32,388 nucleotides of DNA, taken from assembly GCA_023266895.1 (NCBI GenBank), contig JAHFOI010000010.1:1-32388 (forward strand), in the 5' to 3' direction. Origin of the DNA: Candidatus Woesearchaeota archaeon. GTDB taxonomy: Archaea > Nanobdellota > Nanobdellia > Woesearchaeales > ARS49. Under the pieces are notes generated by a model that had not been told where the DNA came from, made no database searches, and was given only the letters and a program-made list of their open reading frames with translations. Made by a program: the position numbers and the translations under genes. This document shows, one piece after another, positions 1,855 through 29,109 of this stretch. Position 1 is the stretch's first letter; every line of letters starts with the position of its first letter.

Positions 1855-1955
1855 TGCGTCGGCTGGGAGTCGAACCCAGGCCATCAGCTCACGCCGACCA
1901 AAAACATGCTTTGCGGTCTTGGAAGGCTGAGATCATACCGTTAGATCACCGACGC
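1855..1955 (-). tRNA. tRNA-Gly (TCC) with canonical 37/38 intron of about 30 nt (intron 1890-1919)
   Basis: Reverse complement GCGTCGG..TCAGC CTTCCA^[AGACCGCAAAGCATGTTTTTGGTCGGCGTG]^A GCTGA..CTGGGTTCGACTCCCAGCCGACGC+A73. BHB-like pairing: GACC/GGUC inner helix, CA^A and UG^A 3-nt bulges, CUUC/GGCG central helix (one mismatch). Confidence 0.9.
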
Positions 1956-26473: not shown

Positions 26474-26586
26474 TCTTTTTGTAATCAATCTTTTGTCGCA
26501 CTATGACTTACTTATATTATACTTCTTTAGACCATATGGCTTTAGACCATACTTCAGTATCTCATTGAGATATTAAATCCGCCAAT

Positions 26587-26609
26587 AACTGGTACCAGTT
26601 GGTACCAAC
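26587..26609. promoter_or_regulatory. Candidate double operator: overlapping palindromes AACTGGTACCAGTT and GTTGGTACCAAC
   Basis: TGGTACCA boxes at 26590-26597 and 26600-26607, centres exactly 10 bp apart, about 40 bp upstream of ATG 26651 and just upstream of TATA-like cttaataa. Confidence 0.7.
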
Positions 26610-26650
26610 ACTACCACTAAGCTTAATAAGCAGTACATACTTCTTCACCT

Positions 26651-26953
26651 ATGCCAAGCATAAGCATTCATCTACGCATCAATCAAAAAGTATTTTCGCA
26701 ACTTCAACATGAAGCAGAACAAACTCACACCTCAGTACCAGAAGTAATTCGCAAACAAATACATCACAAATACTCAGTCAAAAAATCACGCCAACGCCAC
26801 CAACCACTTGCCTATGGCTTTGCAGGACCAGCACACCGCAAGATAAAAACCTTTGAAGACTGGTTTTCAGGACCACCCCACAGAAAAATCAAAACCTACG
26901 AAGATTGGTTCTCCGGACCACCAGGAAGCGCACGAAACAAGAAGAAAAAATGA
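26651..26953 (+). CDS. Ribbon-helix-helix-like DNA-binding protein with tandem 15-aa C-terminal motif
   Basis: ISIHLRINQKVFSQLQHEAEQTHTSVPEVIRKQI (RHH-like); HRKIKTFEDWFSGPP HRKIKTYEDWFSGPP repeats. Confidence 0.7.
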   Translation: MPSISIHLRINQKVFSQLQHEAEQTHTSVPEVIRKQIHHKYSVKKSRQRHQPLAYGFAGPAHRKIKTFEDWFSGPPHRKIKTYEDWFSGPPGSARNKKKK

Positions 26954-27065: not shown

Positions 27066-27563
27066 TTGCTGAACTTGTTTTTTCAGCAGCCAACAACTGA
27101 TTTTCAGCTTCGTCAGATGAGCAGACTTGCGAAAATAGCACCGCCGTCAACAAAAAAATATATCAATGCATTGATAACAGAAGGAATTATTGCCAAATCA
27201 AACAAAGGAATATATCCTTTGTATCGTGCAGTTCGTGATGGGCAGTTTTTCAAAGCTCTTAAAAAGTGGTCATTAATACGTGAACTTACTCTCAATGGTT
27301 TCACAAATAATATTGTTGAACTATGCAGTCCTGACCCGATTATTTTATTTGGAAGCGGAAACCGAGGCGAAGACATTGAATGCAGTGATATTGATATTGC
27401 AGTAATTGCAGAAGAAAGCACTCTGAGCCTGAAAAAGTATGAAACACTTCTTCATAGAAAGATTTCACTCCTGTTTGTTAAAAAATACAGCGAACTTAGC
27501 AAGGAACTCAAGAATAATATAGTCAATGGAAGCATTTTGTATGGATATTTGAAGGTGTTCTGA
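27066..27563 (+). CDS. HTH + nucleotidyltransferase (MNT/minimal NTase) protein, putative antitoxin
   Basis: Winged-helix N-terminus; PIILFGSGNRGEDIECSDIDIAVI (GSxxxG...SDIDI NTase motif); TTG start uncertain. Confidence 0.85.
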   Translation: MLNLFFQQPTTDFQLRQMSRLAKIAPPSTKKYINALITEGIIAKSNKGIYPLYRAVRDGQFFKALKKWSLIRELTLNGFTNNIVELCSPDPIILFGSGNRGEDIECSDIDIAVIAEESTLSLKKYETLLHRKISLLFVKKYSELSKELKNNIVNGSILYGYLKVF

Positions 27564-27564
27564 A

Positions 27565-27969
27565 ATGGAGGAACTCATCAAAATGACTCCTGATAAAGAA
27601 CGTGCAAAGAACTTGCTCGCACAAGTTGAAGTCAGACTTCGGGACTCAAAAAACAAAGATCCAACTGAATTTGCAACACTCATCATTGAAGCATACTATG
27701 AACTAATCAATCAACTACTCACTGCACTCCTTGCAGTTGATGGTTACAAAACCTTGAGTTACATAGCACTCATTGATTATCTCCGTATAAAATATTCAAT
27801 ACAATTCAGTGAACATGAACTCCAAACCATTGATGAACTGCGAAAAATTAGGAATCGCATAGCCTATGAAGGATTCATGATCAAGAAAGACTATCATGAT
27901 CGTAAAGCGCAGTGTACAATTCAAATAATTACTAAACTCAAAAAAATCGTTTCAAACAAAGTATTGTGA
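27565..27969 (+). CDS. HEPN-domain protein, putative toxin partner
   Basis: Helical; DELRKIRNRIAYEGFMI matches the HEPN motif region (RNxxxY in place of RNxxxH); adjacent to MNT gene. Confidence 0.8.
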   Translation: MEELIKMTPDKERAKNLLAQVEVRLRDSKNKDPTEFATLIIEAYYELINQLLTALLAVDGYKTLSYIALIDYLRIKYSIQFSEHELQTIDELRKIRNRIAYEGFMIKKDYHDRKAQCTIQIITKLKKIVSNKVL

Positions 27970-28745: not shown

Positions 28746-29109
28746 TTTGGCTTGGGTGAGGAGCTCGCTGACGGTGACGTCAATGACGTTGCTGAGGAAA
28801 GTCTGCCCACTACAATCAGAATAATAACTGAGGAACAAGTTACTGGCAACAGATCCAGCAATGGATGGCTCCATCACAGAAACGGCACGGCCTGCATTAC
28901 AAGCATGAATGCTGCGAAGGCATCCGCGAGGCTGCTGAGCTAACCAGCAGACGATGATGCAGGAAACGTTGAAACGGATAGCCCTAACTGGTGCAAGGCA
29001 CTCACGTGCTGCTTAGTAGAATGCGAACACGCCCTCATGAGTCATATCATGAACACTGCTTATCAGTGTCAAGGCGCACAAAAGGCAGCTTATCCTTGCC
29101 CAAGCCAAA
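28746..29109 (+). ncRNA. rnpB: RNase P RNA
   Basis: Terminal 11-bp P1 helix tttggcttggg/cccaagccaaa; CR-I gctgaggaaagtctgccc; CR-V-like tagaatgcgaaca; 3' cacaaaaggcagcttatcc. Confidence 0.9.

Follow-up and report, generated by a model that had tools for sequence, protein, structure and literature searches.

The stretch of DNA analysed here (the window; 32,388 nucleotides) belongs to the genome of a woesearchaeote (1.09 Mb in 52 contigs), and carries a gene for a small protein, P0001, composed of a predicted RHH head and a repeat tail. The translation of this gene reads MPSISIHLRINQ...LAYGFAGPA-HRKIKTFEDWFSGPP-HRKIKTYEDWFSGPP-GSARNKKKK. The features of the locus, together with related sites located elsewhere, are listed in Table 1.

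Table 1. Positions of the P0001 gene, its parts, the doubled palindromes and nearby features (positions without prefix refer to the window)
Feature	Position	Strand	Basis or remark
P0001 gene, likely RHH protein, 100 aa, ATG to TGA	26651..26953	+	ORF; paralogue and same-genus homologue
Likely RHH head, residues 1-50: strand region SISIHLR, helices 12-25 and 29-49	26651..26800	+	AlphaFold, Foldseek, PDB profile match
Lead-in LAYGFAGPA	26807..26833	+	Identical in paralogue; L-YGFAGPA also in G001
Tail unit 1, HRKIKTFEDWFSGPP	26834..26878	+	Short low-confidence helix modelled at 68-72
Tail unit 2, HRKIKTYEDWFSGPP	26879..26923	+	Short low-confidence helix modelled at 83-87
C-terminal GSARNKKKK, partial third-unit remnant (FSGPPGSAR) and lysines	26924..26950	+	
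Proposed operator, tandem 8-bp palindromes TGGTACCA-GT-TGGTACCA, 10-bp period	26590..26607	.	One of five perfect genome sites
TATA-like box TTAATAAG, 15 bp past operator, about 21-28 bp before ATG	26623..26630	+	Read from sequence
GGCGGAT, degenerate counterpart of GACGAGA, at window site	26577..26583	-	
Direct repeat CTTTAGACCATA, twice, 15 bp apart	26525..26551		Upstream of proposed operator
Paralogue gene	C18:28449-28742	-	
Doublet	C27:32513		Between convergent ends of SAM methyltransferase and polysaccharide deacetylase genes
Doublet	C46:11753		Downstream of CYTH protein gene and tRNA-like structure; faces convergent alpha/beta hydrolase gene
Doublet, mixed, TGATATCAGCTGGTACCA	C46:28640		Between divergent CMAS-type methyltransferase gene and L7Ae-headed operon
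Tandem AGTTCACT-AC-AGTTCACT, 10-bp period	L003, about 1865-1895	-	At -152 of the G001 homologue
MNT/HEPN-type pair	27066..27969	+	Downstream of P0001
Archaeal RNase P RNA	28754..29101	+	Rfam RF00373, 104.7 bits
tRNA gene	1855..1955	-	Rfam; missed by ARAGORN
tRNA gene	L068:14915-15010	+	Rfam; missed by ARAGORN
tRNA-like structure	L066:5890-6022	+	Missed by Rfam and ARAGORN

An RHH-like N-terminus had been proposed for this protein in the earlier note, and the proposal was supported by the helices of an AlphaFold model, by Foldseek matches to CopASO, Arc and CopG, and by a profile match to AvtR. In the model, which was built on a shallow set of only 3 sequences, the two head helices are separated by a three-residue turn, and residues 11-40 reach a pLDDT of 86-92. 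The tail was modelled at a pLDDT of about 44-61, and little was formed beyond the two head helices except for low-confidence helical turns over FEDWF and YEDWF. The strand of the RHH head was absent from this monomer model. With the model as query, Foldseek retrieved the RHH proteins CopASO, Arc, CopG, TacA1 and AtaR; the best matches showed a probability of up to 0.99 and a target-normalised TM of about 0.8-0.9, but E-values above 0.3 because the RHH domain is so short. When the family profile was compared with PDB, residues 7-54 matched AvtR of an archaeal virus (E=0.001). The score of P0001 against Pfam RHH_1 was 12.6 bits, below the cut-off of 20.5. Since short RHH domains often fall below this cut-off, the sub-threshold score lowers the case for membership in the family but does not exclude it. 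Weak profile matches below cut-off were observed for RHH_1, CopG_antitoxin and Arc-like families, while NCBIfam gave no match of P0001 above cut-off and PHROGs gave only weak matches to Arc-like regulators. As judged from the model and the fold search, the N-terminus of P0001 is likely an RHH domain.

The presence of a tandem 15-residue repeat in this ORF was confirmed. Tail units 1 and 2 share 14 of their 15 residues, with a single F/Y change, and the estimate in the earlier note that about half of the codons differ synonymously proved right (7 of the 14 identical residues). By the Nei-Gojobori method, the two units differ by 8.0 synonymous changes on 8.8 sites, that is at saturation, and by 2 changes on 36 nonsynonymous sites. 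An alternative and equally valid register is F[AS]GP[AP]HRKIKT[FY]EDW at residues 57-71 and 72-86, followed by FSGPPGSAR as a partial third copy. The tail is basic (11 K/R vs 4 D/E), and its best-conserved part is the LAYGFAGPA lead-in.

Exactly one paralogue of P0001 was detected in the genome; the heads of the two proteins are 35% identical, and their tails are identical over 43 residues. The same-genus genome G001 encodes one homologue, which carries a single tail unit, LEYGFAGPAKRNVKSYIDLFSETK, and keeps the core YGFAGPA..R..K..(F/Y).D.F. As the paralogue has the same 43-residue tail and YGFAGPAKRNVKSYIDLFS is found in the same-genus genome, the repeat is not a product of chance. The tail was detected in no further genome among the 353 searched of the order. 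The G001 homologue was the only relative found in GTDB contigs, and no relative was found in viral contigs. Order-wide profile matches at E-values of 1e-4 to 6e-3 were generic RHH heads or unrelated ORFs, all tail-less, and the tail alone gave no match against PDB. The upstream neighbour of P0001 is a THUMP-type methyltransferase gene, and beside this gene in genomes of the family no tail motif was found outside G000. The copy number of tail units, which the earlier note proposed to compare, does vary, and the tandem arrangement is limited to the source genome, as the sole relative outside carries one unit. The earlier note would have given up its proposal if the motif were confined to this genome and an RHH fold were not predicted; the fold is predicted, and the one-unit core is present in one other genome.

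A tandem TGRTAYCA doublet precedes the gene of each paralogue, and this is the new observation reported here. The full candidate operator reads TGGTACCAGTTGGTACCA before P0001 and TGATATCAGCTGATATCA before the paralogue gene, the latter lying 15 bp ahead of TTTTTATAG; both are composed of two perfect 8-bp palindromes with a 10-bp period, in the pattern TGRTAYCA-NN-TGRTAYCA. The P0001 promoter appears to be of the leaderless type. The whole genome was searched for TGRTAYCANNTGRTAYCA with up to 3 mismatches, using the reversed pattern as control. Five perfect sites were detected, none with 1-2 mismatches and 27 with three; the total of 32 sites against 30 for the reversed control indicated that the 3-mismatch sites are at background level. 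From base composition, 0.007 perfect sites were expected, although operator statistics of this kind are after the fact, since the idea arose from inspection of the upstream sequence; the genome-wide gap between five and none is exempt. Perfect TGRTAYCANNTGRTAYCA was absent from 25 other genomes of the family. Two of the five doublets stand at an equivalent promoter position, one ahead of each of the only two genes of the protein family. The G001 homologue has no TGRTAYCA doublet upstream, which counts against the operator reading, and G001 contains one AGTTCACTACAGTTCACT doublet and no regulon.

The sequence of the doublets themselves was also informative. Octamer changes at positions 3 and 6 preserve the palindrome, and GACGAGA is located exactly 6 bp beyond three of the doublets, with GACGGAGA at a fourth. 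An RNA hairpin was rejected as an account of the doublet: at the mixed site, each octamer stays palindromic and the arm-to-arm pairing between octamers is broken, which points to DNA-bound symmetric dimers. An extended repeat or transposon was also rejected, as similarity among the five sites stops after the N6-GACGAGA element. The doublet appears to be the operator of this RHH pair, an assignment that rests on promoter position. The doublets before both genes are stronger evidence for a DNA-bound protein than that offered in the earlier note, in which they were missed.

It is fairly probable that P0001 and its paralogue constitute a pair of promoter-binding RHH regulators, with diverged heads and one shared multivalent motif tail. 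DNA binding and the use of the doublet as operator are well supported predictions, and we infer autoregulation and a docking role of the tail. In RHH dimers a two-stranded sheet reads the major groove, and repeated sites are occupied by dimers lying side by side. By this mode, each dimer would insert its sheet into the major groove of one TGRTAYCA palindrome, and the doubled site would hold two adjacent dimers separated by one helical turn. The dimer pair would be located just upstream of the TATA/BRE of each own gene, a position compatible with activation or repression, and at three further intergenic sites. Strand residues 5 and 7, which are expected to face DNA, are S5/H7 in P0001 vs G5/L7 in the paralogue, and R9 is invariant in all three proteins. 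The palindrome centres also differ between the own operators, GTAC for P0001 vs ATAT for the paralogue. An invariant R9 with differing positions 5 and 7 would fit palindromes that have the TG..CA frame in common but differ in their centres. The tail plausibly presents several copies of a short linear docking motif; its flexible basic chains would be held alike while the heads diverge, and the eight motif copies per doubled site would provide an avidity surface for one common partner, such as a co-regulator or basal factor. Archaeal RHH proteins are known to bind cooperatively, and to act at their own promoters as well as at a small number of other sites (PMC5569661).

Several known systems share a part of these features. 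AvtR of Acidianus filamentous virus 6 (PDB 4hv0), detected by the profile match, is an archaeal RHH regulator, and such regulators bind their own promoters. However, AvtR carries two tandem RHH domains per chain, in contrast to the one RHH domain and repeat tail of P0001, and its consensus ATnnTnnTAnnACnTT is unlike TGRTAYCA. The Arc, CopG and MetJ repressors have the RHH fold (Arc and CopG by Foldseek) and bind repeated palindromic sites as side-by-side dimers, but they recognise other operators and have no comparable tail of linear-motif repeats. SvtR of SIRV1 is an archaeal RHH autorepressor acting on its own promoter and three other sites (PMC5569661). The size of this regulon is nearly the same as that of the five-doublet set, but SvtR is viral, lacks a repeat tail and has another binding consensus.

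Two of the five doublets are located between convergent genes, outside recognised promoters, and this counts against the regulator reading. Together with the one doublet in a divergent gap and the exact spacing of the GACGAGA element, it would be in line with a chromosome organiser or segregation protein, for which the doublets would serve as dispersed anchors (cf. MatP/matS and RHH ParB/parS) and the tail would contact ParA, SMC or PCNA. RHH ParB proteins that bind repeats do exist, and omega of pSM19035 binds DNA repeats that overlap its own promoter as well. We consider such a role rather unlikely, as only five sites were detected and two of them share one position before the two protein genes, as the sites of regulators do. 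Omega needs four or more contiguous heptads and ParA, whereas each site here contains two octamers and no ParA was recognised among the neighbouring genes scanned, so that neither the array nor the partner that mark an RHH ParB system was seen for P0001.

The nearest folds are mostly RHH antitoxins, the best match being CopASO of Shewanella (PDB 6iya), and MNT/HEPN genes begin 112 bp downstream of P0001. P0001 might then be a solitary, or orphan, antitoxin, of which the RHH head autoregulates and the tail neutralises a toxin as in the CopASO and ParD types, possibly with MNT/HEPN as partner. CopASO requires two inverted repeats in its own promoter (PMC8706911), and its disordered C-terminal tail folds on its toxin. 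The CopASO tail is, however, acidic and toxin-binding with the toxin gene alongside, whereas the P0001 tail is basic and repeated, with no shared toxin. The MNT/HEPN genes form a self-contained pair and accompany just one of the three family members. No recognised toxin was found next to the paralogue, the neighbours of which are an ABC ATPase with a ferredoxin domain and unnamed small genes, or next to the G001 homologue, which is located near truB and a BatA/VWA gene. The conserved adjacent toxin by which type II RHH antitoxins are recognised was not found here, no recognised toxin being common to the three loci. In addition, five dispersed sites exceed what a TA operon needs, and an orphan antitoxin is unlikely.

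For the regulator pair, the evolution of the tail was then compared with that of the head. The three heads, those of P0001, its paralogue and the homologue in G001, are about equidistant (35, 29 and 31% identity; dS 0.8-1.0). Between the paralogues, the tail sequences show 7 differences (dS 0.29), all of them synonymous (chance 3e-5), indicating selection on the tail peptide. Either paralogue tail shows 62% identity to that of G001, with dS saturated. In comparison with G001, conservation is higher in the tail than in the head (13/21 vs 14/49, P=0.015). Between the paralogues, the head exceeds the tail in both synonymous change (18/33 vs 7/29, P=0.02) and nonsynonymous change (49/120 vs 0/100, P<1e-15). 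As the heads are equidistant while the paralogue tails are identical, the tails have probably been homogenised by gene conversion. The simplest account is a conversion of the tail between the paralogues that followed the genus split and came in addition to selection on the peptide. The tandem duplication predates this conversion, as the codon differences between units follow nearly the same pattern in both paralogues. The view in the earlier note that the repeat is old and constrained as peptide is thus upheld by the synonymous saturation between units and by the changes between paralogues, but the near-identity of the paralogue tails is probably due in part to recent gene conversion and is not a measure of pure long-term constraint.

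Conversion could also have acted on a tail without function. The identity of the paralogue tails is discordant with the divergence of the heads, a sign of conversion, and the relative carries only one unit, as might be expected if the tail were a drifting duplication kept alike by gene conversion, with no specific partner and with the RHH head alone of importance. This is quite improbable: the exclusively synonymous differences between paralogue tails speak against it, the units retain 14/15 residues despite saturation, and the tail core is kept in G001 while the head drops to 29% identity.

It is highly improbable that the tail units are non-canonical PIP-like peptides tethering PCNA to RHH-bound sites: the genome encodes PCNA, IKTFEDWF and IKTYEDWF carry neighbouring aromatics at PIP positions 7-8 and are hydrophobic at position 4, and the initial Gln was missing in 34% of confirmed PCNA-binding motifs in a survey (PMC6881253), but here position 4 is aromatic and not aliphatic as well as Gln being absent, positions 7-8 are LF in G001, the best-conserved YGFAGPA is not part of the PIP-like stretch, FEN1 of the same organism has a canonical box, QTGLSAYFS, at its end, and octamers of such kind are common by chance. 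The canonical PIP box, Q-x-x-[ILMV]-x-x-[aromatic]-[aromatic], was rejected for IKTFEDWF, which starts with I instead of Q, carries F/Y at position 4 and fits at positions 7-8 only.

To our knowledge, the regulators of DPANN archaea are almost uncharacterised. The RHH pair formed by P0001 and its paralogue is real and lineage-specific; its repeat tail is conserved and unusual, and its set of candidate operators is sharply defined. From sequence alone, a protein pair, a predicted five-site operator and a defined tail peptide are at hand, and these are accessible in vitro without culturing. A more specific reading, possible but doubtful, is that of a genus-restricted module in which different operators recruit the same partner, perhaps a basal transcription factor or clamp, through the conversion-homogenised tail; the five doublets, of which some lie away from every known promoter, would be part of this module. 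If true, a repeated linear motif on an RHH dimer would have been homogenised between paralogues with diverging heads, giving a simple example of how evolution separates 'where to bind' from 'whom to recruit'.

Some further observations were made on the neighbouring genes and RNAs. In the MNT/HEPN-type pair, the MntA-like protein contains GSGNRG...DIDIAV, and the HEPN partner is without a clear RX4-6H and reads RNRIAYEG; the pair matched PDC-M05A/B of PADLOC, with NCBIfam MntA below cut-off. Two overlapping ORFs of 75 and 67 aa are probably spurious because they coincide with the RNase P RNA gene. Both tRNA genes missed by ARAGORN are longer than usual and probably intron-bearing. Upstream of the G001 homologue, the tandem AGTTCACT doublet, the sole perfect copy in G001, sits within an inverted repeat AACATTTGC...GCAAATGTT. 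The tRNA-like structure stops about 30 bases short of one of the five doublets. It consists of an acceptor GCCGGCG/CGCCGGC, a D-arm, a long variable arm and an anticodon loop CTGAACC; its T-loop region contains extra bases, and its folding z-score is -5.
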